A DNA stretch of 64,000 bases from Serratia nematodiphila DZ0503SBS1 (GTDB taxonomy: Bacteria; Pseudomonadota; Gammaproteobacteria; Enterobacterales; Enterobacteriaceae). The position numbers and the translations under genes were made by a program. Each line of letters opens with the position of its first letter. Within the stretch, counting starts at the first letter, position 1. The DNA lies in the NCBI RefSeq assembly GCF_000738675.1, contig NZ_JPUX01000002.1:372001-436000 (forward strand). The letters are read 5' to 3'. This document shows positions 2,379-64,000 of this stretch, piece after piece. The notes under the pieces were generated by a model. That model did no database searches, was not told where the DNA came from, and saw only the letters and a program-made list of their open reading frames with translations.

Positions 2379-2390
2379 TTACAGGCATAA

Positions 2391-7858: not shown

Positions 7859-7880
7859 TATGCCCGCCGTACAACGGGCA

Positions 7881-7904
7881 AAAAAATCCCCGGACCAGCC
7901 GGGG
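7881..7904 (-). terminator. Terminator of the chiPQ-chb operon
   Basis: Read on the minus strand, CCCCGG-CTGGT-CCGGGG is followed by a run of seven T. It lies about 160 bases after the chb stop; nothing gene-like lies between. Confidence 0.75.
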
Positions 7905-8061
7905 AAAGATCATGTCATGAAATACTACAATTGCAGCGGCACTGCGACTCCACGTACTGCTCTCACTTCAACATCCGCCCCACGCCGGCACGCGCGGGGG
8001 CGAACGCATTCCCCCTTCGTTAAGCGGCCCGCCGCCATGACGACAGGCCGATGTGCCGGGC

Positions 8062-10719: not shown

Positions 10720-10732
10720 CTTCTCGTCCTTC

Positions 10733-11059
10733 TTAATTATTGTTATCGCGAATTTCTTGCCACAGCTTGCCGCACTTGGCGTCGTAAGCCTGACCGTTAC
10801 CGCTGTGAACCGCCATAATGCAGTTCTGATAATCCATCACCCGCACCGTTTCCTGCGCGGCGAACTGCTGGTGCTGTTTCTCTTGTTTCAGCACGTTCAA
10901 CACCGCCTTACAGGGCTGCAGACGCTCCGGCGAACCTTCGGCGGTGTTGATACAGGCGCTGTAAGCCTGCTTCAATTTGGCGTCTTCCGGCGGCGCGGCG
11001 GGTTGCGCGCAGGCGCTCAAGGCCGCGGCGGCCGCCAACATCAGCATGATTTTTTTCAT
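10733..11059 (-). CDS. chiQ: ChiQ, small lipoprotein of the chitoporin operon
   Basis: Product of 108 residues with a lipoprotein signal: [17 protein letters not shown], lipidated Cys near residue 17. The mature part is hydrophilic and helical with three further Cys (YSACIN, LQPCKAV, YQNCIM, DAKCGK), likely disulphides in the periplasm. E. coli ChiQ (YbfN) follows chiP in the same way. Its role in chitosugar uptake is not established; a simple guess is support of the porin or chitobiase at the outer membrane. A GC hairpin lies in the 46-base gap after chiP (about 11079-11101). Confidence 0.9.
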
Positions 11060-11105
11060 CGTTGAATTCCCTTAACTGCCCCCGGCGACGAGGCCGGGGA
11101 ACGCA

Positions 11106-12509
11106 TCAGAAGATGGTGAATGGCGCGATGACCATGAACTTGACGTCTTTCTCGTCCTGGAAGATGTTGCCGTAACCGCCGCCCCAGCTCGGGATGTTGG
11201 TGTGGTTGTCATACTGGGTGTAGTGCAGCTTGATCAGCGTGCCCTTGGCGCGCCCTTCCTGGATGGTGTACATCGCGTCCAAGCTCCAGGCGCTCTCTTT
11301 CAGGCGCTGGCTCTGATCGTAGATCGGGTTGGTGCTCGGCTTGGCGTCCCAGGCGTAAACGTAGGAGCCGCCGACCGCCATGCCCGGCAGGTTCCAGTTG
11401 CTGAGGTCATACATCACGCCGGCGTACACCGCTTTCTCGCCGTTGGCGTTAAAGTCGGAGCGGTTATCCCACCACACATCCAGGCGGCCGTTAGACGAGG
11501 CGTAGGTCGGGGTCATGCGCTGCAGGAAGAAGCCCTGGTTGCCTTCCGCCTTGACCATTGTGCCTTCCAGACGCCAGTTGAACTGGCCGGTGGTGTAACC
11601 TAAGGTCAGCGCCTGCAGCCAGGCCAGCCCGTCGTAGATGCTGTTCGGATCGTTCTTGTCGCTGAGGCGATCTTCCGCACCGTAGAACTGGTAACTGGTG
11701 GTCAGCGGGTTGCCCAGCACATCGAATTTGTAAGACGCCTTGGTGAAGTACTGATTCACGTAACCCTGGGCCTGGCCGAAGGCGGCTTCCAGCACCAGAT
11801 CGTTTTTGAAATCGTACTTGGCGCCCAGCGAGTGCAGGTAGGAGACGCGGGTTTTCTTATCGTTCTGGCGGAAGTCGTCCACCTCGATATGCCACGGCGC
11901 CTTGTATTTGTCGGCCCACATGTAGGAGAAGCTCAACGCGCCGGCATCGCCGTAGTCGAACTTGGCGCCGGCCTCGGCGCCCTGATAGGTGCCCGGCATA
12001 AAGCTCCAGTGCGGCGCCAGCAGGGTTTGGCCGCTCGGCTGAATATAGCCGGCGCGAGCCCAGACCGGGCCGTATTTGAACTTGGCGGCGGCTTTGTACA
12101 GGCTGACGCCGCCTTTGTCACCGGAATAGTCTTCGTCGTAGGTACGGTTTTTTGAGGAGAACGCGATCTCGTTCGGGTGGCCGCTGGCGCTGGATTCAGC
12201 CAGCTCGATGGCGGTAAAGGCACCGACATCCAAGCCGAACATGTCCCAGGCGTAGCCCGAGGCGAAATCCAGGCTCAGGTTGGCGGTAGAGTGCGACAGG
12301 TTGGTGGTGTATTGGTTGTAATCCTTGCTGTCCGGATTGAGATCTTTACGGTCGCGCTCACGTTGCCAGTAATAGATGCCGCCGGTCAGCGTGGAATCAT
12401 CGATAAACCCTGCGGCTTTCGCCTCAGGCGCCATGGCAAACCCTGTTCCCAACAGCGCGCCCGCGACTGCGAGCGCCAGCGTTTTACGCTGAGCACCGTG
12501 CGTACCCAT
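11106..12509 (-). CDS. chiP: Chitoporin ChiP (OprD-family outer-membrane porin)
   Basis: Product of 467 residues (E. coli ChiP 468). It has a Sec signal ending near the AMAPEAKA segment and a beta-barrel with alternating aromatic strands ending in [10 protein letters not shown], whose terminal Phe is the usual barrel-assembly signal. It lets chitobiose and longer chito-oligosaccharides cross the outer membrane for Chb and the PTS. First gene of chiP-chiQ-chb. Its ribosome site AGAGGAAT is buried in a 16-base match to the small RNA ChiX, so translation should be silenced unless chitosugars titrate ChiX. Confidence 0.96.
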
Positions 12510-12512
12510 ATT

Positions 12513-12528
12513 GAAATTCCTCTTTGAC
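12513..12528 (-). promoter_or_regulatory. ChiX small-RNA target site over the chiP ribosome site
   Basis: The mRNA reads GUCAAAGAGGAAUUUC here, four bases before AUG. This is a perfect complement of the ChiX pairing stretch GAAAUUCCUCUUUGAC known from E. coli/Salmonella. Pairing would cover the Shine-Dalgarno. The chiX gene itself is not in the window. Confidence 0.88.
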
Positions 12529-12867
12529 TTAACTTAAAAGTTGCAGCCGCCTGTGTTCACCACTGCCCTGCACGACTGCCAATAAAAAACCCGAACGGGT
12601 AAAAAAAATTGCCGACGAGATGTTATTCCCACAGCACTAATTGCTACAGACAGACTATTTTTCGCGACGCGAATTATCAAATGAAAAATGCGGGAGATTT
12701 GTCAAAATATGACAAGGAGCACATATCAGTGAGATTTTGTTACGCCAGTGTTCATGGAAGGTGTCGAATAAAAAATTCAATTAAATCAGAATAAATTGAG
12801 ATACAAGGTCAACCAGAGACGATTAATGGTTTCAGCCTGACCAAATCCGTCATTCAGACAATAAAAA

Positions 12868-12884
12868 TTGAGAGCGCTCTCCAA
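12868..12884. promoter_or_regulatory. LacI/GalR-type operator-like palindrome
   Basis: TTGAGAGCGCTCTCCAA has a perfect 12-base dyad GAGAGCGCTCTC with central GCGC. This is the shape of operators for LacI-family sugar regulators (for example the CelR site with GGGAGCGCTCCC). The cognate regulator is not in the window. Confidence 0.5.
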
Positions 12885-12890
12885 ATGAAA

Positions 12891-12911
12891 TTAATTCGCA
12901 TCACGAATATA
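12891..12911. promoter_or_regulatory. Candidate NagC operator upstream of chiP
   Basis: TTAATTCGCATCACGAATATA fits the spacing TTAnTTY-N7-RAAn and matches 13 of 21 positions of the nagE operator at 17143-17163. E. coli chiP is also under NagC. It is about 380 bases before the chiP start. Confidence 0.5.
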
Positions 12912-13033
12912 TAAGTAAAAATTAAGGCTATTAAGTCCAATATCAGAAAACTTATTGATTAACGCACCGAGGTTAATTAAGCACAGCCCGGAATAACGCT
13001 GCAGGAATAGATGATTTGCTCAATGGCAGACAT

Positions 13034-13058
13034 AAAAAAAGCGCGGCCTAAGCCGCGC
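13034..13058 (-). terminator. Rho-independent terminator of glnS
   Basis: On the minus strand GCGCGGC-TTAG-GCCGCGC is followed by seven T. It lies 30 bases past the glnS stop. Confidence 0.9.
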
Positions 13059-13087
13059 TGATTCATTAATTTCCAAGGCGAATAAGA

Positions 13088-14752
13088 TTAGCCTTCGATT
13101 TTCGCCCAGGTATCACGCAGGCCAACGGTGCGGTTAAACACCAGATGGTCGGCCGACGAGTAACGGTTGTCGGCACAGAAGTAGCCTTCACGCTCGAACT
13201 GGTAGGCCTTCTCCGGCTGGGCTGCCGCCAGACTCGGCTCAACGAAACCGTGCTTGATGACCAGCGATTCCGGGTTGATGGTAGAGAGGAAATCCTCCGC
13301 CGCGCCCGGGTTAGGCACGCTGAACAGGCGATCGTACAGGCGAATTTCCGCCGGCAGCGCGTGCGCCGCGGACACCCAGTGGATCACGCCCTTCACCTTG
13401 CGGCCGTCGGCAGGATCTTTGCTCAGCGTTTCCGCATCGTAGCTGCAGAAGATGGTGGTGATCTCGCCCGCTTCGTCCTTCTCGACGCGCTCGGCCTTGA
13501 TCACGTACGCATTGCGCAGACGCACTTCCTTGCCCAGCACCAGACGCTTGTACTGCTTGTTGGCTTCTTCGCGGAAGTCGGCGCGATCGATATAGATCTC
13601 GCGGCTGAACGGCACATCGCGGCTGCCCATTTCCGGCTTGTTCGGGTGGTTAGGCATGGTGACCATTTCCACCGCATCGCCCATGTTCTCGATGACGATT
13701 TTCACCGGATCCAGCACCGCCATGGCGCGCGGGGCGTTCTCGTTCAGATCGTCGCGAATGCAGGATTCCAGCGCCACCATCTCGACGTTGTTGTCTTGCT
13801 TGGTCACGCCGATGCGCAGGCAGAACTCGCGAATCGAGGCGGCGGTATAACCGCGGCGGCGCAGACCGGAGACGGTCGGCATGCGCGGGTCATCCCAACC
13901 TTCGACGATCTTCTCGGCCACCAGTTGGTGCAGCTTGCGCTTCGACATGATGGCGTATTCGAGGTTCAGACGCGAAAACTCGTACTGCCGCGGGTGGCAA
14001 GGAATGGTGATGTTATCCAGCACCCAGTCATACAGACGGCGGTTATCCTGGAACTCCAGGGTGCACAGCGAATGGGTGATCCCTTCCAGCGCATCGGAAA
14101 TGCAGTGGGTGAAATCGTACATCGGGTAGATGCACCATTTGTCGCCGGTCTGGTGGTGTTCGGCGAACTTGATGCGGTACAGCACCGGGTCGCGCATCAC
14201 GATAAACGGCGAAGCCATATCGATCTTGGCGCGCAGGCAGGCGGCGCCTTCGGCGAACTCGCCGTTGCGCATCTTCTCGAACAGCGCCAGGTTCTCTTCC
14301 ACGCTGCGGTCGCGGTACGGGCTGTCTTTGCCCGGCGAGGTCAGGGTGCCGCGATATTCACGGATCTGCTCCGGCGACAGCTCATCGACGTAGGCCAGCC
14401 CCTTGGTAATCAGCTCAACCGCATACTGATGCAGCTGATCGAAATAGTCTGAGGAGTAATGAACGTTGCCGCTCCACTCAAAGCCCAGCCACTCCACGTC
14501 GTGCTTGATTGACTCCACGAACTCGATGTCTTCTTTCACCGGGTTGGTGTCATCGAAACGCAGGTTGCACTGGCCCTGATAGTCCTTGGCGATGCCGAAG
14601 TTCAGGCAGATGGACTTGGCGTGGCCGATATGCAGATAGCCGTTAGGCTCCGGCGGGAAACGGGTATGTACCGACGTGTGTTTCCCCGACGCCAGATCTT
14701 CATCGACGATCTGACGGATAAAATTGGTTGGGCGGGCTTCAGCCTCACTCAT
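13088..14752 (-). CDS. glnS: Glutaminyl-tRNA synthetase
   Basis: Product of 554 residues from ATG 14752 ([19 protein letters not shown]), the conserved enteric N-terminus; a start five codons upstream at 14767 adds MRNSE and is less likely. It is a class I enzyme charging tRNA-Gln in an ATP-dependent, tRNA-requiring reaction. The HIGH motif is in [15 protein letters not shown] near residue 40, the MSKRK loop (KMSKS equivalent) near residue 268, and the anticodon-binding beta barrels fill the C-terminal half ([28 protein letters not shown]). It is single and ends at its own terminator. Confidence 0.98.
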
Positions 14753-14894
14753 TTCACTGTTCCTCAATGCAAAGCGCTACACATAACCGCCTATGATCCA
14801 ACAAGCCACGTCTGGAAACAACCGTTTGTTTCACGAAAAATGCGGCATATTGCACCATCGGCGCGCAGCGCACCGCCGTGGAGCGAGATGGGAT

Positions 14895-14927
14895 AAAAAA
14901 AGCGGGAAGAGATCGCTCTCTTCCCGC
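14895..14927 (-). terminator. Rho-independent terminator of nagE
   Basis: On the minus strand GCGGGAAGAGA-GCGA-TCTCTTCCCGC (14902-14927) is followed by seven T. It lies about 65 bases past the nagE stop. Confidence 0.9.
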
Positions 14928-14992
14928 CAAGTCGGGGCAAACTCCGCCATGATGCGTGACCGGCCCCGGGTACTACTCAGGTAAAAACAGCC

Positions 14993-17029
14993 TTATTTCT
15001 GGATCTCGTACAGCTTGGTCTGACCGGCGACCACAGAGCCGCTGGCCAGCGCCGCCAGGCCGGCATAGTCGTCAGAGTTGCTGACTACCACCGGGCTTAT
15101 CATCGAACGCGCATTGGCGTTCAGGTAATCCAGATCCAGTTCCAGAATCGGTTGACCGGCTTTCACTTCCGCGCCCTCTTCCACCAGGCGTTTGAAGCCC
15201 TGGCCTTCCAGCGCGACGGTGTCGATCCCCATGTGCACCACGATCTCAGCGCCCTTGTCGGTTTCCAGGCAGAAGGCGTGGTTGGTATTGAAGATTTTCA
15301 CCACGGTGCCGTCAGCCGGCGACACCACGATGTTGTCGGTCGGGCGAATCGCCAGGCCGTCGCCTACCGCCTTGCTGGCGAAGGCTTCGTCCGGCACCTG
15401 ATCGAGTGCCACCACTTCACCGGTTACCGGCGCCACCAGCGTTTCAAACGCGGCTTTCGGCGCGTTCGGCACCGCCTGCGGTTTGGCTTCTGCAGCAGGG
15501 GCCGCCGCCGGAGCCGCCGCTGCCGCTACCGGGCCGGACGCGATCACGTTGCGCATCGCGCTGGCGATAAGTTCGGCACGGGTGCCGACGATCACTTGCA
15601 CGCTTTGCTTGTTCAGGCGGATAACGCCCGATGCGCCGAGGCGTTTCGCCAATGCGTCGTTCACCAGCGCGGAGTCTTTCACGTTCAGGCGCAGACGGGT
15701 GATGCAGGCATCGATGCCGGTCAGGTTGTCGGAACCGCCGATCGCGCCGACGTAGCGACGGGCCAGCGTGGTGGTTTCGTTCTCGTCTTTACCGGCGTTG
15801 CTGTCGACGTTGACGTCGTAGCCGTCGGTTTCGTCACCGGCAACCGCCAGTTCGCGGCCCGGGGTCATCAGGTTGAACTTATTGATGGTGAAGCGGAACA
15901 CCACGTAGTAGATGACGAAGAACACCAGGCCTTGCGGGATCAGCATGTACCAGTGAGTCGCCAGCGGGTTGCGGGAAGACAGCACCATATCCACCAGGCC
16001 GGCGCTGAAGCCGAAACCGGCGATCCAGTGCATGCTGGCGGCGATGAACACCGAGATACCGGTCAGCACGGCGTGGATCACGTACAGCACCGGCGCCACG
16101 AACATGAAGGAGAATTCCAGCGGTTCGGTGATACCGGTAAAGAAGGCGGCGAAAGCGGCCGCCAGCATGATGCCCGCCACTTTGGCTTTGTTCTCAGGAC
16201 GCGCGCAGTGATAAATGGCCAGCGCCGCACCCGGCAGACCGAACATCATAATCGGGAAGAAGCCCGCCTGATAACGGCCGGTGATGCCGACAACCGCTTT
16301 ACCGGCTTCGATCGACTGCTGGCCGCCGAGGAAGTTAGGAATATCGTTGATGCCGGCCACGTCGAACCAGAACACCGAGTTCAGCGCGTGGTGCAGGCCA
16401 ACCGGAATCAGCAGGCGGTTGAAGAAGGCATAGATGCCCGCGCCGACCGAGCCCATTTTCTGGATGTGTTCACCGAAGTTCACCAGACCGTTGAAGATCA
16501 CCGGCCAGATGTACATCAGAATGAAAGCCACCAGGATCATCAGGAAGGAGATGAGGATCGGCACCAGGCGGCGGCCGCTGAAGAACGACAGCGCCTTAGG
16601 CAGCTCGACGCCGCTGAAGCGGTTGTACACTTCGGCGGAAATGATGCCCACCAGAATACCGACGAACTGGTTCTGGATCTTGCCGAACGCGGCAGGCACC
16701 TGATCCAGCGGGATCTTCTGAATCATCGACACGGCGGCCGGCGAACAGAGGGTGGTCAGCACCAGGAAGCCGACGAAGCCGGTCAACGCGGCGGCGCCGT
16801 CCTTGTCTTTGGACATGCCGTAGGCCACGCCGATAGCGAACAGCACCGACATGTTGTCGATGATAGCGGAGCCGGATTTAATGAAGAAAGCGGCGAGCGC
16901 GTTGTCGCCGCCCCAACCAACAGGGTCAATCCAGTACCCGACGCCCATCAAGATGGCGGCGGCGGGCAGCGTGGCGACCGGCACCATCAGCGCCCGTCCC
17001 ACCTTTTGCAAATAACTAAGAATGTTCAC
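14993..17029 (-). CDS. nagE: GlcNAc-specific PTS enzyme IICBA
   Basis: Product of 678 residues, about 30 longer than E. coli NagE because of an Ala/Pro-rich linker (PVAAAAAPAAAPAAEAKPQA region) between domains. The order is IIC (about ten membrane segments, residues 1-370), IIB (phosphorylated Cys in GSDNLTGIDACITRLRL) and IIA (phosphorylated His in EIVVHMGIDTVALEG). It imports GlcNAc across the inner membrane with phosphorylation to GlcNAc-6-P, taking phosphate from HPr. It is divergent from nagBACD and shares their control region with NagC and CRP sites. Confidence 0.97.
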   Translation of the reverse strand: MNILSYLQKVGRALMVPVATLPAAAILMGVGYWIDPVGWGGDNALAAFFIKSGSAIIDNMSVLFAIGVAYGMSKDKDGAAALTGFVGFLVLTTLCSPAAVSMIQKIPLDQVPAAFGKIQNQFVGILVGIISAEVYNRFSGVELPKALSFFSGRRLVPILISFLMILVAFILMYIWPVIFNGLVNFGEHIQKMGSVGAGIYAFFNRLLIPVGLHHALNSVFWFDVAGINDIPNFLGGQQSIEAGKAVVGITGRYQAGFFPIMMFGLPGAALAIYHCARPENKAKVAGIMLAAAFAAFFTGITEPLEFSFMFVAPVLYVIHAVLTGISVFIAASMHWIAGFGFSAGLVDMVLSSRNPLATHWYMLIPQGLVFFVIYYVVFRFTINKFNLMTPGRELAVAGDETDGYDVNVDSNAGKDENETTTLARRYVGAIGGSDNLTGIDACITRLRLNVKDSALVNDALAKRLGASGVIRLNKQSVQVIVGTRAELIASAMRNVIASGPVAAAAAPAAAPAAEAKPQAVPNAPKAAFETLVAPVTGEVVALDQVPDEAFASKAVGDGLAIRPTDNIVVSPADGTVVKIFNTNHAFCLETDKGAEIVVHMGIDTVALEGQGFKRLVEEGAEVKAGQPILELDLDYLNANARSMISPVVVSNSDDYAGLAALASGSVVAGQTKLYEIQK

Positions 17030-17363
17030 CTTTTCCCCCTATGTTGTCCGCGGACGGACCCTATTAGTAGTTTATTTGGAGCTCTCACTACCTTTTTAGA
17101 AAAAACGCATGGCACGTATCACTCATGCCGAGTGTAAAAAATTTATTTTGTATCGCAAATTAAAACCTCCCTTTTTGTGATAAATATCACCAAAAAGTAG
17201 TCTTTACCTCCCAGATTGCTGGCCATCACACAAAACTTATTTTATCATTCAAAAAATCAACCGGACGGACGATTCACGCGAGAATCATAAAGCTGGGTTA
17301 CGCTTAGGACTCCCGCAGGCCCGTACAGTATAGCTTTAGTTTACTTATCCCAAGAGGTGTTAG
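17030..17363. promoter_or_regulatory. nagE-nagB divergent control region (NagC boxes and CRP site)
   Basis: This 334-base gap holds two related 21-base NagC operators, TTATTTTGTATCGCAAATTA at 17143 (nagE side) and TTATTTTATCATTCAAAAAA at 17237 (nagB side), centres about 94 bases apart, and a near-consensus CRP site TGTGA-TAAATA-TCACC at 17176-17191 between them. In E. coli the two NagC boxes hold a DNA loop that represses both genes until GlcNAc-6-P binds NagC. The close match in type, order and spacing argues for the same switch here. Confidence 0.88.
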
Positions 17364-18164
17364 ATGAGACTTATCCCACTGAAAGATACCGCACAAGTCG
17401 GCAAATGGGCCGCGCGTCATATCGTTCAACGCATCAACGCATTCAAGCCAACCGCAGAGCGCCCGTTTGTACTCGGCCTGCCTACCGGCGGCACGCCGCT
17501 GGAAGCCTACAAACATCTGATTGCGATGCACAAAGCAGGTGAAGTAAGCTTTAAGCATGTTGTGACTTTCAACATGGACGAGTACGTTGGCCTGCCGCAG
17601 GAACACCCGGAAAGCTACCACACCTTCATGTACCGCAACTTCTTTGATCACGTTGATATTCCTCGTGAAAATATCAACCTGCTGAACGGCAACGCCGCGG
17701 ATGTCGACGCCGAGTGCCGCCAGTACGAAGAGAAGATCAAGTCTTACGGCAAAATTAACCTGTTCATGGGCGGCGTGGGCATCGACGGCCATATCGCGTT
17801 CAACGAGCCGGCTTCGTCCCTGGCTTCGCGCACCCGCATCAAAACGCTGACCGAAGACACCCGCATCGCCAACTCGCGCTTCTTCGGCGGCGACGTCAGC
17901 CTGGTGCCGAAATATGCGCTGACCGTCGGCGTGGGTACGCTGTTGGACGCGGAAGAAGTGATGATCCTGGTGACCGGCCACGCCAAGGCGCAGGCGCTGG
18001 AAGCCGCGGTGGAAGGCAACATCAACCACATGTGGACCATCAGCTGCCTGCAGCTGCACGCCAAAGCGGTGGTGGTGTGCGACGAACCGGCCACCATGGA
18101 ACTGAAAGTCAAAACCGTCAAATACTTCCGCGAGTTAGAAGCGGAAAGCGTGAAAAGTCTTTAA
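17364..18164 (+). CDS. nagB: Glucosamine-6-phosphate deaminase
   Basis: Product of 266 residues, the same as E. coli. It converts glucosamine-6-phosphate to fructose-6-phosphate and ammonia. Visible are the phosphate loop GLPTGGTPL near residue 38, the catalytic Asp in [10 protein letters not shown] near residue 72, and the [11 protein letters not shown] motif with the catalytic His near residue 143. An AGAGGTG ribosome site precedes the ATG. First gene of nagBACD; the nagA start follows the stop by 18 bases. Confidence 0.98.
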
Positions 18165-25191: not shown

Positions 25192-25268
25192 GGCTACGTA
25201 GCTCAGCTGGTTAGAGCACATCACTCATAATGATGGGGTCACAGGTTCGAATCCCGTCGTAGCCACCA
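25192..25268 (+). tRNA. metT: tRNA-Met (CAT), elongator
   Basis: A 77-base cloverleaf with anticodon CAT in CACTCATAATG, T loop GGTTCGAATCC and encoded CCA end. It matches E. coli metT almost base for base, so it is elongator rather than initiator Met. First gene of the cluster. Confidence 0.97.
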
Positions 25269-25284
25269 TCTCTTTTTTGCATTT

Positions 25285-25369
25285 GCGGGAGTGGCGAAAT
25301 TGGTAGACGCACCAGATTTAGGTTCTGGCGCCGCAAGGTGTGCGAGTTCAAGTCTCGCCTCCCGCACCA
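25285..25369 (+). tRNA. leuW: tRNA-Leu (TAG)
   Basis: An 85-base class II tRNA with acceptor GCGGGAG/CTCCCGC, anticodon TAG in AGATTTAGGTTCT, a variable arm GCGCCGCAAGGTGT and encoded CCA. It is the second gene, as leuW in E. coli. Confidence 0.96.
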
Positions 25370-25399
25370 TTTCTCTTCATCGTCGGCGCAGTATGTTGA

Positions 25400-25474
25400 T
25401 GGGGTATCGCCAAGCGGTAAGGCACCGGTTTTTGATACCGGCATTCCCTGGTTCGAATCCAGGTACCCCAGCCA
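25400..25474 (+). tRNA. glnU: tRNA-Gln (TTG), copy 1
   Basis: A 75-base tRNA with acceptor TGGGGTA/TACCCCA, anticodon TTG in CGGTTTTTGATACCG and encoded CCA. It is identical to copy 2 at 25519. Confidence 0.96.
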
Positions 25475-25518
25475 TATTCTTTCGGGAACGGGGTTTCAAC
25501 ATAAGATTTGTTTGCAGG

Positions 25519-25593
25519 TGGGGTATCGCCAAGCGGTAAGGCACCGGTTTTTGATACCGGCATTCCCTGGTTCGAATCCAGGTACCCCAGCCA
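25519..25593 (+). tRNA. glnW: tRNA-Gln (TTG), copy 2
   Basis: A 75-base exact repeat of the tRNA at 25400, including CCA. The 44-base spacer between the copies is unrelated to the other spacers, so the duplication covers the gene itself. Confidence 0.96.
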
Positions 25594-25634
25594 TAACAAA
25601 CTGCTTGCAAATCAAAGAAGTAAAAAGTAACATC

Positions 25635-25711
25635 GGCTACGTAGCTCAGCTGGTTAGAGCACATCACTCATAATGATGGGGTCACAGGTTCAAATCCCGT
25701 CGTAGCCACCA
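25635..25711 (+). tRNA. metU: tRNA-Met (CAT), elongator, second copy
   Basis: A 77-base near-copy of the tRNA at 25192. The only difference I see is in the T loop, GGTTCAAATCC instead of GGTTCGAATCC. The anticodon and CCA are the same. Confidence 0.96.
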
Positions 25712-25715
25712 TAAT

Positions 25716-25790
25716 TGGGGTGTCGCCAAGCGGTAAGGCTCTGGTTTCTGATACCAGCATACCCAGGTTCGAATCCTGGCACCCCAGCCA
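25716..25790 (+). tRNA. glnV: tRNA-Gln (CTG)
   Basis: A 75-base tRNA with anticodon CTG in TGGTTTCTGATACCA, acceptor TGGGGTG/CACCCCA and encoded CCA. It starts only four bases after the preceding tRNA. E. coli has a second copy (glnX) here; this window has one. Confidence 0.96.
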
Positions 25791-56153: not shown

Positions 56154-56750
56154 ATGCTCCCCCCCAACGACAGTAAACAGGCCAAAGTGCAGGCTCGCCG
56201 CGATCAGATCGTCGAAGCGGCGAAAACCAGCTTTCGCCGCCACGGCTTCCACGCCGCCAGCATGGCGGAGATCGCCCAGGGCTCGCAGCTTAGCGTCGGG
56301 CAAATCTATCGCTATTTCGCCAATAAAGACGCGATCATCGAAGAGATCGTCAACCGCATCATCACCAACAAGATGCAGCGGCTGGAAAACCTTGGCGATC
56401 ACATCAACCTGATCGCCGGCACGTTGGCGGCGCGCACGCTGTTTCAGCAGCCGGGCGAGAGCGAAACCGATCACATGCTGATGCTGGAAGTGACCGCCGA
56501 GGCCACGCGCAACCCGGTGGTGGCCAAAATGCTCAGCGATGCGGAAGCGCGGCTGTTTCGCCACGTGTGCCACAATCTGCAGCGGCTGTACCCCCATTTC
56601 AGCGAGGAAGAGATCGCCGCCCGGGTGGAGTTTATCGCCGTCATGAGCGAAGGCACCGGTTACCGGATCCTTACCACGCAAAAAGCCGATGCGTCCCTGC
56701 TGCGCGATCTGTATCAGCAGGCCATTTCTCACCTGTTCAGGAAATCTTAA
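56154..56750 (+). CDS. TetR/AcrR-family transcriptional regulator
   Basis: Product of 198 residues. The N-terminal helix-turn-helix is typical (RRDQIVEAAKTSFRRHGFH, MAEIAQGSQLSVGQIYRYFANKDAIIEEIV); the C-terminal ligand domain is not assignable to a known inducer. The gene for a Bcr/CflA drug exporter starts six bases after the stop, so it most likely represses that pump and itself through the palindrome in its promoter. Start ATG 56154 is preceded by GGATCGGGCAG. Confidence 0.92.
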   Translation: MLPPNDSKQAKVQARRDQIVEAAKTSFRRHGFHAASMAEIAQGSQLSVGQIYRYFANKDAIIEEIVNRIITNKMQRLENLGDHINLIAGTLAARTLFQQPGESETDHMLMLEVTAEATRNPVVAKMLSDAEARLFRHVCHNLQRLYPHFSEEEIAARVEFIAVMSEGTGYRILTTQKADASLLRDLYQQAISHLFRKS

Positions 56751-56756
56751 TCTCCC

Positions 56757-57947
56757 ATGACCAAACACTTAGCCAGACAACGTCTGGTGTACGCCGTCGT
56801 GCTTGGCCTGTTGGCCGCGCTGGGGCCGCTGTGCACCGATCTCTATCTGCCCGCCCTGCCGGAAATGGCGGGCGAGCTGAATACCTCCACCGCCGCCGCG
56901 CAGCTCAGCCTGACCGCCGGGCTGCTCGGCCTGGGCGTCGGCCAGCTGATTTTCGGCCCTTACAGCGACAAGCTGGGCCGTATGCGTCCGCTGCTGCTGT
57001 CGCTGATCCTGCTGCTGGGCGCTTCGCTGTGGTGTGCGCTGGCGCCCACCATCGACCAGTTGCTGATCGCCCGCCTGCTCCAGGGCATCGCCGGCGCCGG
57101 TGGCGCGGTGATTTCCCGCGCCATTGCCCGCGATCTGTACGCCGGCCATGAGCTGACCCGTTTCTTCGCCTTGCTGATGCTGGTTAACGGCCTGGCGCCG
57201 ATCGTCGCGCCGGTGCTGGGCGGCGTGATGCTGCAGGTGATGAACTGGCGCGGCATCTTCGGCGTACTGGCGGCCATCGCGGTGCTGCTGTTCAGCCTGT
57301 CGGCGCTGAAGCTGCGCGAATCCCTGCCGGTAGAGCGCCGCAGCCAGGGCGGTATCCTGGCGATGCTGATGTCACTCGGCGGGTTGCTGACCCAGCGCTA
57401 TTTTATGGGGCTGTGCCTGACGCAGGGCTTCGTAATGGCCGGCATGTTCGCCTATATCGGCGCTTCGCCTTTCGTCTTGCAGCAGATCTACGGCCTCAGC
57501 CCGCAGATGTTCAGCCTGTGCTTCGCCATTAACGGCGTCGGGCTGATCATTGCGGCGCAGCTGGCCAGCCGTCTCAGTTCACGTTGGGGGGAACGCCGGG
57601 TGTTGAGGGGCGGGTTAACGCTGGCGGCCGTCGCATCGCTGCTGCTGTTGTTGGCCGCCGCGCTGCATGCGCCGTTGGTCGTGTTGCTGGTGCCGCTGTT
57701 CTTCTCGGTGGCGGTGATCGGCATCGTCGGCCCGACCGCCTCGTCGCTGGCGATGCAAAGCCAGGGGGACAAAGCCGGCAGCGCGTCGGCCTTGATCGGC
57801 GTGTGCATGTTCGCGCTCGGCGCCTGCGCCGTGCCGCTCACCGGGCTGGGCGGCACCTCAGGCCTGTCGATGGCGCTGACCATCGTCGGCTGTTACGCCA
57901 TCGCCATCCTGCTGTTCAGCCAGTTGGCCCGCCGCAGCGAAGCATAA
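56757..57947 (+). CDS. Bcr/CflA-family multidrug efflux MFS transporter
   Basis: Product of 396 residues with twelve predicted membrane segments. DHA1-type features include the N-terminal LGPLCTDLYLPALPEMAGEL, the loop 2-3 motif GPYSDKLGRMRPLLLS (motif A) and LLQGIAGAGGAVISRAIARDL (motif B region). Family members such as Bcr export bicyclomycin, sulphonamide, chloramphenicol or L-cysteine with proton antiport; the true substrate here cannot be read. It is co-transcribed with the TetR regulator and ends at a terminator shared with cspE. Confidence 0.93.
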   Translation: MTKHLARQRLVYAVVLGLLAALGPLCTDLYLPALPEMAGELNTSTAAAQLSLTAGLLGLGVGQLIFGPYSDKLGRMRPLLLSLILLLGASLWCALAPTIDQLLIARLLQGIAGAGGAVISRAIARDLYAGHELTRFFALLMLVNGLAPIVAPVLGGVMLQVMNWRGIFGVLAAIAVLLFSLSALKLRESLPVERRSQGGILAMLMSLGGLLTQRYFMGLCLTQGFVMAGMFAYIGASPFVLQQIYGLSPQMFSLCFAINGVGLIIAAQLASRLSSRWGERRVLRGGLTLAAVASLLLLLAAALHAPLVVLLVPLFFSVAVIGIVGPTASSLAMQSQGDKAGSASALIGVCMFALGACAVPLTGLGGTSGLSMALTIVGCYAIAILLFSQLARRSEA

Positions 57948-58559: not shown

Positions 58560-59723
58560 ATGACCAGCCAGTTGGCAGACAAGATCATCGCCTATCGGCG
58601 TGAACTGCACCAAAACCCGGAGCTTTCCAATCACGAATTCGCCACCACCGCCCGCCTGACCCGCTGGCTGCAAGAGGCGGGCATTCGTATTCTGCCGTTG
58701 GCGCTGAAAACCGGCGTCGTGGCGGAGATCGGCTGCGGCAAGGGGCCGATCATCGCCCTGCGCGGCGACATCGACGCCCTGCCAATCGACGAAATCGCCG
58801 ACGTGCCCTTCAGCTCGCAAAACAGCGGCGTGATGCACGCCTGCGGCCACGACTTTCACACCTCGGTGATGCTCGGCGCCGCGCACCTGCTCAAAGCGCG
58901 TGAGGCCGAGCTGCCCGGCACGGTGCGCATCTTCTTCCAGCCGGCGGAAGAGACCTTCAACGGCGCCCGGCACCTGATCGACGCCGGCGCGCTGGATAAC
59001 GTCGCGGCGGTATTTGGTCTGCATAACGCGCCGGAGCTGCCCACCGGCACCTTCGCCACCCGCGCCGGACCGTTCTACGCCAACGTCGATCGCTTCCAGA
59101 TCCGCATCACCGGCAAAGGCGCCCACGCCGCCAAACCGGAACAGGGCGTCGATACCATCGTCACCGCCAGCCAGATCGTCGGCGCGCTGCAGACGCTGCC
59201 CAGCCGCAGCTTCAGCTCGCTGGAATCGCTGGTGGTGAGCGTAACGCGCATCGAAGGCGGCAATACCTGGAACGTGCTGCCGCAAACCGTCGAGCTGGAA
59301 GGCACGGTGCGCACCCACAGCGACGCGGTGCGCCGCCAGGTGCCGGATAAAATTCGCCAGGTGATCGACGGCGTCGCCGCCGCGCTGGGCGCCCAGGCCG
59401 AACTCCACTGGCAGCCGGGGCCGCCGGCGGTGATCAACGACGCCCATTGGGCGGCGTTCAGCAAAACCGTCGCCGCCGAAGCCGGCTACCGGGTCGAAGA
59501 GGCGGAGCTGCAGATGGGCGGCGAAGATTTCGCGCTGTATCTGCATCACGTGCCGGGCGCGTTCGTCAGCATCGGCTCCGCCAGCGAATTCGGACTGCAT
59601 CATCCGCGTTTCAATCCCGATGAGCGCGCCCTCTTCCCTGCCGCCCACTATTTTTCGCTGCTGGCGGAGCGCACGCTGCAACAATTAACCACCGCAGCGA
59701 AAAAAGCCCTCAGCAACGCCTGA
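58560..59723 (+). CDS. M20-family amidohydrolase (YxeP/HipO-like N-acyl amino acid deacylase)
   Basis: Product of 387 residues. Two-metal M20D hydrolase: GDIDALPI near residue 69, metal ligands in MHACGHDFHTS (His93, Cys95, His97), PAEET near residue 128, GLHNAPELPTG, and a terminal MGGEDFALY. The dimerisation insert starts at GKGAHAAKPEQGVDTI. Such enzymes remove acyl groups from N-acyl amino acids or IAA conjugates. With the FMN monooxygenase, N-acetyltransferase and amino-acid-type ABC genes downstream, the best guess is an N-acetyl-cysteine derivative deacetylase as YxeP in Bacillus. It is cytoplasmic. A hairpin and 189 bases separate it from the next gene, so it may be a separate transcript. 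Confidence 0.88.
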   Translation: MTSQLADKIIAYRRELHQNPELSNHEFATTARLTRWLQEAGIRILPLALKTGVVAEIGCGKGPIIALRGDIDALPIDEIADVPFSSQNSGVMHACGHDFHTSVMLGAAHLLKAREAELPGTVRIFFQPAEETFNGARHLIDAGALDNVAAVFGLHNAPELPTGTFATRAGPFYANVDRFQIRITGKGAHAAKPEQGVDTIVTASQIVGALQTLPSRSFSSLESLVVSVTRIEGGNTWNVLPQTVELEGTVRTHSDAVRRQVPDKIRQVIDGVAAALGAQAELHWQPGPPAVINDAHWAAFSKTVAAEAGYRVEEAELQMGGEDFALYLHHVPGAFVSIGSASEFGLHHPRFNPDERALFPAAHYFSLLAERTLQQLTTAAKKALSNA

Positions 59724-59744
59724 ATAACGTGAAATAGTATTTCT

Positions 59745-59780
59745 CCGACGCCGCTGATGCCGCGTCGGGGATTATTATTT
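59745..59780 (+). terminator. Hairpin after the M20 gene
   Basis: CCGACGC (59745-59751) pairs with GCGTCGG (59762-59768), followed by GGATTATTATTTT. It is a weak terminator at best. Confidence 0.5.
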
Positions 59781-59912
59781 TCGCTCGCCGTGATATTTGC
59801 AGTTTTCAACATTTGAATATGCTGTTTTGTTGTTTTACATCCCGTTGCCGCTCATCAATAGTGGACGCATCAGACACCGCGCGCCTTTGCGGCGCATGAC
59901 AGGATAATCACG

Positions 59913-61238
59913 ATGAGCGACAACGCGAATAATCAACGGCAATTACGGCTGGGCGCCATTCTGCACGGCGCATCGGGAAATATGTCCGCCTGGCGCCACC
60001 CGGACGCCACCGCCGACGCCAGCATCAACCTCGAATTTAATATCGCCTCGGCGAAAAAAGCCGAACAGGGCAAATTCGATTTCGTCTTCGTCGCCGATGG
60101 CTTATATATCAACGAAAAGTCCATTCCGCATTTTCTTAACCGTTTCGAGCCGTTGACCTTATTGGCCGCACTGTCCGCCGCCACCGACAAAATTGGCCTG
60201 GTGGGCACGCTCTCCACCTCCTACAGCGATCCGTTCACCGTCGCCCGCCAGTTCGCCAGTCTCGATCACCTGAGCGGCGGGCGCGCGGGCTGGAACGTGG
60301 TGACATCGCCGCTGGAAGGTTCGGCAAAAAACTTCTCGCGCGCCGAACACCCGGAGCACAGCCTGCGTTACCGCATCGCCGGCGAGTTTCTCGACGTCAC
60401 CAAAGGACTGTGGGACTCCTGGGAAGACGATGCCTTCGTGCGCAATAAGGCCAGCGGCGAATTTTTCCGCGCCGGGAAACTGCACACCCTCAATCACCAG
60501 GGGGAGTTCTTCTCGGTGCAGGGGCCGTTGAACATCGGCCGCACGCCGCAGGGCCGCCCGATCCTGTTCCAGGCCGGCGCCTCCGAAGACGGCAAACGGC
60601 TGGCGGCCAAGCACGCCGATGCGATCTTCACCCATCACGACACGCTGGAGCAGGCGCAGGATTTCTACCAGGACGTGAAGCGGCAACTGGTGGAACAGGG
60701 GCGCGAGCCGGACGATCTGCGCATCTTCCAGGGCGTCAGCGTGATCGTCGGCGACGACGACGCGGACGTCGAGCGTCAGTACCAGGAGACCGCCCGCCTG
60801 GTCAGCATCGAGAACGCCCTCAACTACCTTGGCCGCTACTTCGAACATTACGACTTTTCCCGCCATCCGTTGGACGCCCCCTTCCCGGACATCGGCGATC
60901 TGGGGCAAAACAGCTTCCGCAGCACCACCGACGCCATCAAGCGCAACGCCCGCGAGCGGAACCTCACGCTGCGCCAGGTGGCGCTGGAAGCCGCCTCGCC
61001 ACGCCCGGTGTTCAGCGGCACGCCGGAAGCGGTGGCGGACGGCCTGCAACGCTGGTTCGACGGCGAAGCCGCCGACGGCTTCATCATCAGCGGCGGTACG
61101 CCCAACGCCTTCGGGCACTTCGTCGATCGGGTGGTGCCCATCCTGCAACAACGTGGCCTGTTCCGCCGGGCGTACCACGGCGATACGCTGCGCGAACACC
61201 TGGGCCTCATGCGCCCGTTGAACAGATTCACCCAATAA
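59913..61238 (+). CDS. LLM-class FMN-dependent monooxygenase (NtaA/SnaA/DszA family, YxeK-like)
   Basis: Product of 441 residues. A bacterial luciferase-like (beta/alpha)8 barrel: [70 protein letters not shown] and [21 protein letters not shown] are the family segments. It uses reduced FMN from a separate reductase. Relatives cleave C-S or C-N bonds (DszA, NtaA, YxeK, CmoJ). In this context cleavage of a C-S bond in an N-acetylated S-substituted cysteine is the best inference. CACGATG start with AGGATAA upstream. No FMN reductase gene is in the window. Confidence 0.88.
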
Positions 61239-61264
61239 TAAGATCGTTTTCAGGGATACCCGCT

Positions 61265-62185
61265 ATGCAGAAAACCGTTACCGCCGCTCTCGTGGCGGCC
61301 TTGCTGAGCCTGACCGGCGCCGCGCAGGCGGGCACCGGCATCGATTTACAGGCCAATGAAACCCCGATCCACGCGCCGAAAAACCCGCAGGCGATCGCCA
61401 AACTGCCGGCCGATTTCCACTTCGTGAAGCCGGGCCAATTCACCGTTGCAATCGCCGCGCTCAACACGCCGCCGCTGGCGCTGTTCGCTGCCGACAACCG
61501 GCGGCTTATCGGCAGCGAAGTGGATATCGCGCAGCTGGTGGCCGACAGCCTGGGCCTGGAGCTGAACGTAGTGCAAACGTCGTGGGAAGACTGGCCGCTG
61601 GGGGTGGTTTCCGGCAAGTATGACGCGGCCATCACCAACGTCACCGTGACCAAAGAGCGCAAAACCCGCTTCGACTTCGCCACCTACCGCATCGACTCGC
61701 TCGGCTTTTACGTCAAAACCGGCGGCAAGATCGCAACGATCAAACAGCCTGCCGATATCGCCGGATTAAAGATCATCGTCGGCTCCGGCACCAACCAGGA
61801 AGCCATCTTGCTGGAGTGGGACAAACAGAACCGGCAACAGGGGCTCAAACCCTTCCAGCCGATCTACGTGACCGACGATGCGGCCGCCACGCTGGCGATC
61901 CAGTCCGGCCGGGCCGACGCCTACTTCGGGCCGAACGTGCTGGGCGCCTATAAAGCGGCGCTGAACGGCCGCACCCGGCTCGCTGGCACGGTGGAAGGCG
62001 GTTGGCCCAAGGCGGCGCACATCGCCGTCACCACCCGTAAAGGCAACGGACTGGTGCAGGCGGTGAACGAAGCGCTGAACGGCGCGATCCGCGGCGGACA
62101 GTACGATCAGGTGCTCAATCGCTGGGGCGAGAGCGTCGAACGCCTTGCGCAGTCGGAAATCAACCCGCCCGGCCTGGGCGATTAG
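61265..62185 (+). CDS. ABC transporter solute-binding protein (family 3, YxeM-like)
   Basis: Product of 306 residues with a Sec signal (MQKTVTAALVAALLSLTGAAQA). It is a periplasmic amino-acid-type binding protein: NTPPLALFAADNRRLIGSEVDIAQ, WPLGVVSGKYDAAITNVTVTKERK, KIIVGSGTNQEAIL and AYFGPNVLGAY. It starts 26 bases after the monooxygenase and precedes the acetyltransferase and permease, so it delivers the operon substrate. Ligand unknown; a modified cysteine is the working guess. Confidence 0.9.
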   Translation: MQKTVTAALVAALLSLTGAAQAGTGIDLQANETPIHAPKNPQAIAKLPADFHFVKPGQFTVAIAALNTPPLALFAADNRRLIGSEVDIAQLVADSLGLELNVVQTSWEDWPLGVVSGKYDAAITNVTVTKERKTRFDFATYRIDSLGFYVKTGGKIATIKQPADIAGLKIIVGSGTNQEAILLEWDKQNRQQGLKPFQPIYVTDDAAATLAIQSGRADAYFGPNVLGAYKAALNGRTRLAGTVEGGWPKAAHIAVTTRKGNGLVQAVNEALNGAIRGGQYDQVLNRWGESVERLAQSEINPPGLGD

Positions 62186-62194
62186 GAGCGCGCA

Positions 62195-62722
62195 ATGACG
62201 CAAGACACCTTCATTCAGACGTTGCCGACCGACCCGCTGATCGCCCCGGTGATCGAGGGGCTGTTCGGCGAGTATCGCCAGCGTTACGGCGACTATTTTG
62301 GTGACCAGGAACCGGAACCGCTGGACCTGTATGCACCGCCGCAAGGGGCCTTCATCGTGCTGCTGCGCGCCGGTGCGCCGATCGCCATGGGTGCCTTCAA
62401 ACGCTATGACGCGCAAACCGCCGAGCTGAAGCGCATCTGGACCCGGGGCGATCTGCGCCGCCAGGGCCTGGCGCAGCGGGTGTTGCAGCAGTTGGAAACG
62501 CTGGCGCTGGCGCAGGGGTATCGCCGGCTCTACCTGACCACCGGCTTTCGCCAGCCCGAAGCGGTGGGCCTGTACCTGAGCAACGGTTATCAGCCGCAGT
62601 TCGATCCCACCGTTGACAGCGAGGTTTACAGCCACCCGCCCTACGATGGCCGCCTGCCGTTCCGCAAAAGCCTGATTGCAGAGGACGCGTGTTGTTGCGC
62701 GTCGGAAAGGAAAATCGCCTAA
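62195..62722 (+). CDS. GNAT-family N-acetyltransferase (YxeL/SnaB-like by context)
   Basis: Product of 175 residues. GNAT fold with the acetyl-CoA loop TRGDLRRQGLAQRVLQQLETLA and the terminal GLYLSNGYQPQFDP. TAGGAG lies seven bases before the ATG and the gap to the upstream gene is nine bases. In the Bacillus yxe and ytm operons the same position relative to transport genes is held by an enzyme that acetylates the imported S-substituted cysteine. The C-terminus (EDACCCASERKIA) is Cys-rich and unusual. Confidence 0.85.
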   Translation: MTQDTFIQTLPTDPLIAPVIEGLFGEYRQRYGDYFGDQEPEPLDLYAPPQGAFIVLLRAGAPIAMGAFKRYDAQTAELKRIWTRGDLRRQGLAQRVLQQLETLALAQGYRRLYLTTGFRQPEAVGLYLSNGYQPQFDPTVDSEVYSHPPYDGRLPFRKSLIAEDACCCASERKIA

Positions 62723-62753
62723 ACCCCCTTTATCTGTAGTCAGGAGACATGAC

Positions 62754-63641
62754 ATGTCCAAACAAGAAGTCTTGAAAGTGGTGCCCGCCCGCTATCCGCT
62801 GCGGCTGATCGGCGCCCTGTTCTCGCTGTTTATTCTGGCCGCCATCGTGCAATCGGTAGCGGGCAACGCGCGCTGGGAATGGGGCGTGTTCGCCGAGTGG
62901 TTCTTCGCCCCGGCGGTGCTGGCCGGGCTGGGGCAAACTCTGCTGCTGACGCTGCTCGGCACGCTGTTCAGCATCCTGTTCGGCACCCTGCTGGCGCTGG
63001 CGCGGCTGTCGCGCTCTTACCTGTTGGCGTCACTGGCCTGGGGGTATATCTGGCTGTTTCGCTCGCTGCCGCTGATCCTGGTGCTGATCATCCTGTATAA
63101 CTTTTCCTATCTGTACGACGCCATCTCGCTGGGCATTCCCTTTACCTCGGTGGTGTTCGCCAGCTACCCGACCATCGATATCCTCGGCCAGTTCGCCGTG
63201 GCGGTGCTGGGCCTGACGCTGGTGCAGTCCGCCTATACCGCCGAGATCATCCGCGGCGGCATCCTGGGCGTGGATTACGGCCAGCACGAAGCGGCGGCGG
63301 CGCTGGGCCTGCCGGGCTATCGCCGCACCTTCCGCATCATTCTGCCGCAGGCGCTGCGCTCCATTATTCCGACCGGATTCAACGAGATCATCAGTCTGGC
63401 GAAAGGCACTTCGATCGTTTATGTGCTGGCGCTGCCGGAGCTGTTTTACACCATCCAGGTGATCTATAACCGCACCCAGCAGGTGATACCGCTGCTGATG
63501 GTGGCCACCGTCTGGTATCTGTTCATCACCACCGCCCTGTCGGTGATCCAATACTACATCGAACGCTATTTCGCCCGGGGCGCGGTGCGCGAACTGCCGC
63601 CGACGCCCTGGCAGAAACTGGCCGGCTGGCTAAAACGTTAG
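62754..63641 (+). CDS. ABC transporter permease (HisMQ type, YxeN-like)
   Basis: Product of 295 residues from ATG 62754 with CAGGAG upstream; the longer in-frame start at 62676 lies within the acetyltransferase gene. About five to six membrane segments (LIGALFSLFILAAIVQSVAG, LAGLGQTLLLTLLGTLFSIL) and the EAA loop ILGVDYGQHEAAAALGLPGY. It is a single, homodimeric permease, since only one permease gene is present. It pairs with the ATPase that starts nine bases later. Confidence 0.92.
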   Translation: MSKQEVLKVVPARYPLRLIGALFSLFILAAIVQSVAGNARWEWGVFAEWFFAPAVLAGLGQTLLLTLLGTLFSILFGTLLALARLSRSYLLASLAWGYIWLFRSLPLILVLIILYNFSYLYDAISLGIPFTSVVFASYPTIDILGQFAVAVLGLTLVQSAYTAEIIRGGILGVDYGQHEAAAALGLPGYRRTFRIILPQALRSIIPTGFNEIISLAKGTSIVYVLALPELFYTIQVIYNRTQQVIPLLMVATVWYLFITTALSVIQYYIERYFARGAVRELPPTPWQKLAGWLKR

Positions 63642-63650
63642 GAGACCCGC

Positions 63651-64000
63651 ATGTCTGAAGCCATTGATTATTACGCCTTGCCCGAGCAGCCGGCACGCAA
63701 CCTCACCCCGGTGCCGGCGCGCGGCCTGATCGAAATCAGCAATGTCAGCAAGTTTTTCGGCAAACACAAGGCGCTGGACGACGTCAGCCTGACGCTGCAG
63801 CCGGGCACCGTGACCGTGATCCTCGGCCCTTCCGGCTCGGGCAAATCGACGCTGCTGCGGGCGATCAACCACCTGGAGCGCGTGGACGAAGGCTTTATCC
63901 GCATCGACGGCGACTACGTCGGTTACCGCCGCAAGGGCAACCGGCTGTACGAGCTGAAGGAAAAGGCCATCCTCCGGCAGCGCATCAACGTCGGCTACGT
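63651..64000 (+). CDS. ABC transporter ATPase, N-terminal part (runs off the window)
   Basis: ATG 63651 after TTAGGAGACC opens a frame with no stop by 64000, giving about 116 residues. After a leader of about 28 residues (MSEAIDYYALPEQPARN), the ABC core begins at GLIEISNVSKFFGKHKALDD; Walker A is [18 protein letters not shown] near residue 63. The segment YRRKGNRLYELKEKAILRQR is typical of amino-acid importers such as TcyN/YxeO/GlnQ. Signature and Walker B lie outside. It completes the binding protein-permease-ATPase set. Confidence 0.92.
   Translation, partial: MSEAIDYYALPEQPARNLTPVPARGLIEISNVSKFFGKHKALDDVSLTLQPGTVTVILGPSGSGKSTLLRAINHLERVDEGFIRIDGDYVGYRRKGNRLYELKEKAILRQRINVGY

Follow-up and report, generated by a model that had tools for sequence, protein, structure and literature searches.

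A candidate Cmo-type cysteine salvage operon in Serratia, with an unlinked CmoO-family partner

A 64,000-nucleotide stretch of Serratia nematodiphila DZ0503SBS1 (contig NZ_JPUX01000002.1, positions 372,001 to 436,000; 'the window') ends in a six-gene operon that is probably an enterobacterial variant of the Cmo-type (ytm/ytn-type) cysteine salvage module, acting via a sulphoxide. An earlier reading of the same letters (the first-pass annotation) had called this set Yxe-like and proposed an S-succinocysteine-type substrate. Its general idea is right and its nearest model is wrong: the monooxygenase of the operon is placed by sequence with CmoJ of Bacillus subtilis rather than with YxeK, and the CmoO-family partner that a Cmo route would call for lies outside the window, so that it was invisible from the window's sequence alone. 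So read, a variant of the Cmo pathway occurs in about one in five of the sampled family genomes. Of most value in the analysis are the near-constant partnership with CmoO-family genes and an unlinked binding-protein gene that carries the operon's promoter signature. The genes and the promoter region of the operon are as follows.

58560..59723, + strand: M20-family amidohydrolase, 387 amino acids, proposed N-acetylcysteine deacetylase (Pfam Peptidase_M20, 141 bits)
59804..59862, + strand: putative promoter region of the monooxygenase gene (alignment of ten sequences; conserved block 59804-59842)
59913..61238, + strand: CmoJ-like LLM flavin monooxygenase, 441 amino acids, NtaA/DmoA family, proposed N-acetyl-S-alkylcysteine sulphoxide C-S monooxygenase (TIGR03860, 546 bits)
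61265..62185, + strand: family 3 solute-binding protein, 306 amino acids (Pfam; nearest NCBIfam model cystine-binding, below cut-off)
62195..62722, + strand: GNAT acetyltransferase, 175 amino acids, proposed S-alkylcysteine N-acetyltransferase (Pfam Acetyltransf_1, 52 bits)
62754..63641, + strand: amino-acid ABC permease, 295 amino acids (Pfam; nearest NCBIfam model cystine permease, below cut-off)
63651..64000 and beyond, + strand: amino-acid ABC ATPase, cut by the window edge (open reading frame; complete in the genome)

All six genes are open reading frames on the + strand where the first-pass annotation had placed them, and all six proteins (6/6) matched Pfam models above cut-off. NCBIfam matches over cut-off were at the subfamily level for the M20 and LLM proteins and to a domain model for the permease; the binding protein and the GNAT had none. 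The whole ATPase is 275 amino acids long (L009 6152-6979) and ends 479 bases past the window. The operon ends with it, because the next gene downstream, of the glyoxalase family, is on the opposite strand. The six-gene order is intact in 13 of 21 loci of the same genus, the remaining eight lacking the binding protein only, and in 22 of 35 loci of other genera it recurs with one extra gene at the front. Since the order is kept across both sets of loci, the gene set is not a chance assembly.

The case for a Cmo-type module begins with the monooxygenase. Its best match in the PDB was B. subtilis YtnJ (= CmoJ) at 592 bits, against lower scores for 3SDO (501 bits), DszA (294 bits), dimethyl sulphide monooxygenase (238 bits) and ethylenediaminetetraacetate (EDTA) monooxygenase (222 bits), with no YxeK chain among the matches. 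Pairwise, the enzyme is 58% identical to YtnJ/CmoJ (545 bits) and 50% (49.7%) identical to B. mojavensis YxeK (455 bits). An 85-row tree was drawn from 160 collected sequences (129 after the removal of duplicates and most same-genus copies), alongside a second tree of 55 rows. In the larger tree the monooxygenase fell into a set (support 97) that also includes CmoJ, 3SDO, Rhizobium enzymes and Firmicutes LLMs, most of the last from loci that contain an MsnO8 gene. The clade of YxeK operons was separate from this set, with a support of 93 in the 85-row tree and 64 in the 55-row tree. A grouping of the enterobacterial enzymes with YxeK, which was named after the first tree had been seen, lowered the log-likelihood by 195 and was rejected by the approximately unbiased (AU) test on the 55-row tree (p-AU 3e-110). 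Furthermore, 23 positions distinguish Firmicutes CmoJ-type enzymes (44 rows) from YxeK (9 rows) at 90% conservation in each group, no enterobacterial sequence being in the defining groups; the window's enzyme agrees with CmoJ at 21 of them and with YxeK at none, the remaining two differing from both. Taken together, these comparisons place the monooxygenase with CmoJ and not with YxeK. Seven Firmicutes LLMs from MsnO8-gene loci fell outside the CmoJ set in the 85-row tree, so an MsnO8 gene within a 21-kb locus is by itself no proof of a CmoJ-type enzyme.

The first-pass annotation had named a firm grouping with nitrilotriacetate or dibenzothiophene enzymes as evidence that would speak against cysteine salvage. 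The dibenzothiophene type is ruled out on scores, given the DszA and CmoJ values above. For nitrilotriacetate the comparison is with 3SDO, a nitrilotriacetate monooxygenase by name only, the characterised NtaA being outside the comparison set. In the 85-row tree 3SDO groups with Rhizobium enzymes from cmo-like clusters, and for this reason its name may be wrong. A further yardstick is the definition of a yxe locus by Hillmann et al. (PMC9706529), which takes at least three of five components and counts as a close YxeK homologue an enzyme more than 50% identical to that of B. subtilis. By enzyme class alone the window qualifies, and its YxeK identity is borderline, just under the threshold at 49.7% when B. 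mojavensis rather than B. subtilis YxeK is the reference. By tree, GNAT and YxeQ, the window fails as a yxe locus.

The second line of evidence is the near-constant presence of a CmoO-family gene. The M20 gene of Pantoea agglomerans is directly preceded by a gene that carries the annotation of an MsnO8-family LLM. An MsnO8-family gene likewise stands beside glutaredoxin and CmoJ-like genes in a Listeria locus, where the CmoJ-like product has 77% identity to YtnJ and the MsnO8-family gene would occupy the place of CmoO. Among loci of other genera, 35 of 36 were counted (L150, with an LLM broken by a stop, was left out; the second LLM copies of two genomes, L179 and L180, did not enter the count). 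An MsnO8/CmoO-family gene lies at most 6.5 kb from the monooxygenase gene in 32 of these 35, on the opposite strand in three of the 32. All six window genes are held by 25 of the 35 loci, and 22 have the exact order MsnO8, M20, LLM, binding protein, GNAT, permease, ATPase, which in 14 cases is followed by a second binding protein.

Inspection of 21 same-genus loci, among them that of the window, revealed no MsnO8 gene. Of 30 same-genus genomes, 26 instead encode a CmoO-like protein elsewhere, 60-63% identical to that of Pantoea; exactly these 26 have the monooxygenase, and the other four have neither. In the window's genome the cmoO-like gene is at C1:3450250-3451227, unlinked to the operon. 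In a tree of 51 of 96 rows, the CmoO-like protein of the genus groups with those enterobacterial and Rhizobium proteins whose genes adjoin the monooxygenase gene (support 93), apart from the PRK10508 paralogue; the main enterobacterial set does not include three enterobacterial proteins (L145, L155, L161). One other protein of the genome exceeds the family cut-off, and it matches the equivalog model PRK10508 (660 bits, cut-off 540), which we take to be YhbW. Across 198 family genomes, both genes occur in 37, the monooxygenase alone in two, the CmoO-like gene alone in one and neither in 158 (Fisher p 1.5e-36, shared descent ignored). The three exceptions are a genome with its cmoO-like gene in two pieces (G043), one with its monooxygenase gene in pieces (G190) and one in which the monooxygenase gene lies 2.1 kb from a contig end (G053). 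Broken copies in relatives (loci L147, L150 and L249), namely the cmoO-like gene of G043, the LLM and GNAT genes of G219 (also in pieces) and the LLM gene of G190, may reflect either decay or assembly error.

Two enzymes of the operon remain. The M20 protein has YxeP as its best solved structure (394 bits) and is 49% identical to B. mojavensis YxeP. This match does not discriminate, because no YtnL chain was among the matches. According to PMC12757645, three B. subtilis M20 proteins, from the scm, yha and ytn clusters, deacetylate N-acetylcysteine. A predicted M20-family deacetylase is shared by Cmo and Yxe clusters and so does not tell them apart. The GNAT did not match YxeL by BLAST, even at a threshold of E 10. 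A profile built from orthologues of the GNAT matched relatives from Acinetobacter, Rhizobium and Streptomyces at 278, 236 and 170 bits and the Listeria GNAT at only 20 bits, whereas a YxeL-family profile matched the Listeria protein at 192 bits. The two profiles share remote similarity (hhalign probability 96%, 136 columns, 17% identity). As judged from these searches, the GNAT is not a YxeL orthologue, and the profile comparison implies that the acetylation step, if present here, is carried out by a different GNAT subfamily. In addition, no YxeQ-like gene was found in 57 loci (the window's and 56 related ones). The first-pass annotation had proposed comparing the monooxygenase and the GNAT with YxeK, YxeL and CmoJ in a family tree; of these relations, that to CmoJ is borne out, and those to YxeK and YxeL are not.

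A further connection runs through the importer and the operon's promoter. The best NCBIfam matches of the binding protein and the permease, 75 bits against 312 and 113 bits against 300, are cystine-importer models; this agrees with the general idea of the first-pass annotation, though both scores are far below cut-off. Relatives of the operon's binding protein are encoded elsewhere in all 26 same-genus genomes with the monooxygenase, at 65-69% identity. The operon copy itself was found by search in 14 of the 26 and missing from 12, an absence confirmed in the eight of those 12 loci that were inspected. The window's genome has two stand-alone genes, C1:3613439 (L245 7383-8333) and C1:4113028 (L246 8014-8919), whose products are 68% identical to the operon's. 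Their neighbours, from open reading frames read by eye, seem unrelated. One or two of these unlinked binding proteins probably feed the same permease.

The gap between the M20 and monooxygenase genes contains a block (59804-59842) that is nearly invariant in ten same-genus sequences. A −35-like TTTACA (59834-59839) is followed, after a 17-base spacer, by a −10-like AATAGT (59857-59862) at the end of the conserved region. A scan with the bare promoter pattern performed at chance level (1 found, 0.7 expected). Related sites, two of them weak, were picked up in 11 other-genus loci, close to where the cmoO-like or the monooxygenase gene starts. A 25-position matrix was built from 15 sites, each the best match in its locus, so that it leans to those loci; the sites at the stand-alone genes were outside the training set. 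Over 348,630 positions (both strands of eight genome stretches, two of them overlapping), scores of at least 12 bits occurred only at the operon site, counted twice through the overlap, and upstream of C1:4113028, with the same 17-base spacing to AATAGT. This gene and its counterparts in ten relatives scored 12 to 22 bits, and in all 11 cases none of 200 shuffles scored as high. Counterparts of C1:3613439 scored −0.4 to 13.3 bits, a level reached by 0 to 19 of 200 shuffles (by 5 of 200 for the copy in the window's genome); the promoter link of this gene is accordingly only suggestive. The genomes scored are close relatives rather than independent samples, and the counterparts of the two stand-alone genes were told apart by the length of their open frames, not by a tree. 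With at most three mismatches allowed, the exact 17-base core was counted 23 times in the genome and its reversed control 4 times; taken alone, the core is thus unspecific. The site upstream of C1:4113028 differs from the core at more than three positions and is not among the 23. By the matrix, C1:4113028 clearly shares the operon's promoter signature. The element was absent upstream of the M20 gene, the genus's cmoO-like gene and a second monooxygenase cluster of the genome described below, where the best matrix scores were below zero. The cmoO-like gene has an upstream stretch of its own (upstream of L213 7242-8264, near C1:3451227), alike in three same-genus genomes and unlike the operon's element.

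In B. subtilis, S-alkylcysteines are salvaged by acetylation, oxidation to the sulphoxide by CmoO, cleavage of the C-S bond by CmoJ to a sulphenic acid and an aldehyde, and then reduction and deacetylation (PMC10863075). From the gene content, the sequence relationships, the co-occurrence and the promoter element held in common, all of them directly observed, we infer the substrate and catalysis of a corresponding Serratia route. The ABC importer would take in S-alkyl-cysteines, which the GNAT would N-acetylate. The unlinked CmoO-family flavin enzyme, if it acts as Bacillus CmoO does, would convert the thioether to a sulphoxide. The CmoJ-like monooxygenase would then cut the C-S bond, by the chemistry shown for B. 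subtilis CmoJ, to give an aldehyde and N-acetylcysteine sulphenic acid. The sulphenic acid would be reduced by a thiol reductant and the product deacetylated to cysteine by the M20 enzyme, with reduced flavin mononucleotide (FMN) supplied by a reductase such as SsuE encoded elsewhere. Together, the window set and the unlinked CmoO-like gene supply candidates for all the catalytic steps apart from a dedicated reductant. Import, N-acetylation, flavin-dependent C-S cleavage and deacetylation of an S-modified cysteine, as first proposed, remain the best reading, and the alternatives mentioned in passing at that time, a set close to ytm/ytn and a different S-alkyl cysteine, have become the better one, given the CmoJ relation and the CmoO-family partner. 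The same annotation had seen no flavin reductase; once the genes after position 64000 were read, none was found within the operon. An SsuE-family FMN reductase gene over cut-off is at C1:4266877. The nearest flavin-reductase-like gene downstream, on the other strand about 7.5 kb past the ATPase (C2:443983-444492), is a weak match to the SsuE model (31 bits, cut-off 164).

Several rival explanations share parts of this evidence. Salvage of S-(2-succino)cysteine by a Yxe/Scm-type route, in which the GNAT acetylates and the monooxygenase releases oxaloacetate and N-acetylcysteine, would employ the same enzyme classes and could draw on the non-discriminating YxeP match and the 50% identity to YxeK. 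The tree and AU test are contrary to it, none of the 23 diagnostic positions is YxeK-like, the GNAT has no YxeL match, the 57 loci have no YxeQ-like gene, and the near-constant CmoO-family partner is not needed by the YxeK route. S-succinocysteine as the substrate loses its support by the same evidence, and we regard this route as very improbable. A different idea is that the operon's substrate has nothing to do with S-alkylcysteine and is some other amino acid with an acyl group or another substituent on its nitrogen, for example an aminopolycarboxylate. The LLM family also includes enzymes named for nitrilotriacetate and EDTA, M20 and GNAT are broad families, and the importer's nearest models were matched only below cut-off. 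However, the EDTA, dimethyl sulphide and dibenzothiophene enzymes score at 222-294 bits against 592 for CmoJ, and 3SDO, at 501 bits, itself groups with the Rhizobium enzymes; such a role seems quite unlikely.

Two further possibilities keep the CmoJ-like step and alter what surrounds it. The operon might serve mainly for salvage of ready-made cysteine sulphoxides, such as the plant compounds methiin and alliin, with the CmoJ-like step running without CmoO in this genus. CmoJ acts on sulphoxides (PMC10863075), the cmoO-like gene of the genus lies outside the operon and does not carry its promoter element, and stand-alone binding-protein genes exist besides the operon's. Yet none of the 26 same-genus genomes with the monooxygenase lacks the cmoO-like gene, which is therefore probably still needed; this leaves the explanation a low probability. 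It is also conceivable, if still rather unlikely, that the genus's route is a distributed regulon with one permease and ATPase, up to three binding proteins (two of them stand-alone, with operon-like promoters) and an unlinked, separately controlled sulphoxidation step, through which both S-alkylcysteines and plant cysteine sulphoxides would be usable.

Some observations weigh against the Cmo-type assignment itself. The operon has neither a flavin reductase nor, in the window and the downstream genes, a glutaredoxin-like CmoI or other dedicated reductant gene. The exact sister relation between the monooxygenase and YtnJ has a support of only 16 in the 55-row tree, the M20 tree (66 thinned proteins) does not separate Yxe from Cmo loci, and the GNAT differs from the YxeL-like GNATs of Firmicutes cmo-type loci. 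The CmoO family was identified by where the MsnO8 gene lies within the Listeria cluster, B. subtilis CmoO itself being outside the comparison; the genus's cmoO-like gene is without the operon's promoter element; and the co-occurrence statistic ignores shared descent. The binding protein has as its best PDB match the reconstructed ancestral AncQR (65 bits), which is not a cystine binder.

With the ytm/ytn (CmoO-CmoI-CmoJ) type of B. subtilis, the operon and its unlinked partner share a CmoJ-clade monooxygenase, a CmoO-family protein, a GNAT, an M20 enzyme and an amino-acid ABC importer; this comparison was made through YtnJ and the Listeria locus. The Listeria locus with the 77%-YtnJ enzyme holds ssuE, a GNAT, an importer, the MsnO8 LLM and a glutaredoxin. 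Differences from the ytm/ytn type include one permease here versus two in the Listeria locus, another GNAT subfamily, an operon without a glutaredoxin-like or LysR gene, an unlinked cmoO-like gene in Serratia and extra stand-alone binding proteins. With the Bacillus yxe/scm cluster, the operon has in common the enzyme classes, an M20 protein 49% identical to YxeP and the complement of one binding protein, one permease and one ATPase; it differs in a monooxygenase outside the YxeK clade, a GNAT that is not YxeL, the lack of YxeQ and its CmoO-family partner. Plasmid clusters of Rhizobium (R. johnstonii pRL10 and R. bangladeshense p4) contain an MsnO8 LLM, a CmoJ-like LLM 57-58% identical to the window's, an M20 protein, a GNAT at about 50% identity and two binding proteins. 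Unlike the window, they have a fused permease and ATPase and, in both cases, a further LLM, a DsbA-family protein and an FMN reductase. A gamma-glutamylcyclotransferase gene further downstream in pRL10 would fit S-alkyl-glutathione as a source.

Other monooxygenase clusters were observed as well. A second cluster in the same genome (L010 genes 8-5948; C1:3636000-3642000) encodes a LysR-type protein, an MmgE/PrpD protein (38% identical to YxeQ), an LLM monooxygenase, a binding protein, a permease and an ATPase, with no GNAT or M20 gene within it. Of the 23 diagnostic positions in its monooxygenase, 11 are YxeK-like, 3 are CmoJ-like and 9 are neither. Candidate orthologues of this enzyme are the second LLMs of 15 of 30 same-genus genomes, which share 44-45% identity with the window's LLM. 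Another stretch (L200, C1:2784000-2803000; 5810-18153) has an SsuD-like LLM, an NtaA/DmoA-family LLM and an ABC importer, together with acyl-CoA dehydrogenase-like and FMN reductase-like proteins identified by reading open frames; these genes possibly form a further sulphur-source cluster. On plasmid pB61a of Ewingella americana (L252 75-8186), an MsnO8 LLM, a YxeL-family GNAT and a CmoJ-like LLM (60% identical to YtnJ) surround four ABC-transporter genes of another type, with one binding protein, two permeases and one ATPase, perhaps a peptide importer. Elsewhere in the window, a TetR-family regulator adjoins a Bcr/CflA-family efflux gene of the major facilitator superfamily (56154-57947), unrelated to the operon, and six tRNA genes (Met, Leu, Gln, Gln, Met, Gln) are clustered at 25192-25790.

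Within the genus, 26 of 30 genomes encode the monooxygenase at no less than 90% identity; the four without it are 1.5 to 3.6 Mb in size. With a threshold of E 1e-150 it was recovered in 39 of the 198 family genomes, about a fifth, and the best copies outside the genus are 70-79% identical. Named carriers include Klebsiella pneumoniae and many large plasmids of Pantoea. A nucleotide search (blastn) of a collection of 5,426 E. coli genomes gave no match. The Cmo pathway, worked out in B. subtilis, is described in PMC10863075 as widely distributed among soil bacteria. No description of a Cmo-type module in enterobacteria was recognised among the matches listed, judged by titles and the starts of abstracts, and in the annotated records that were opened the module genes carry generic names only.

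These results would place a matching Cmo module in Klebsiella, Pantoea and Serratia, with testable assignments for six to nine genes. Cmo-type and Yxe-type clusters have enzyme classes in common and are easy to confuse; a CmoJ-like gene paired with a CmoO-like one gives a simple rule for telling them apart by sequence. Finally, if the stand-alone binding proteins do serve the operon's importer, the genus would possess one transporter with exchangeable receptors.

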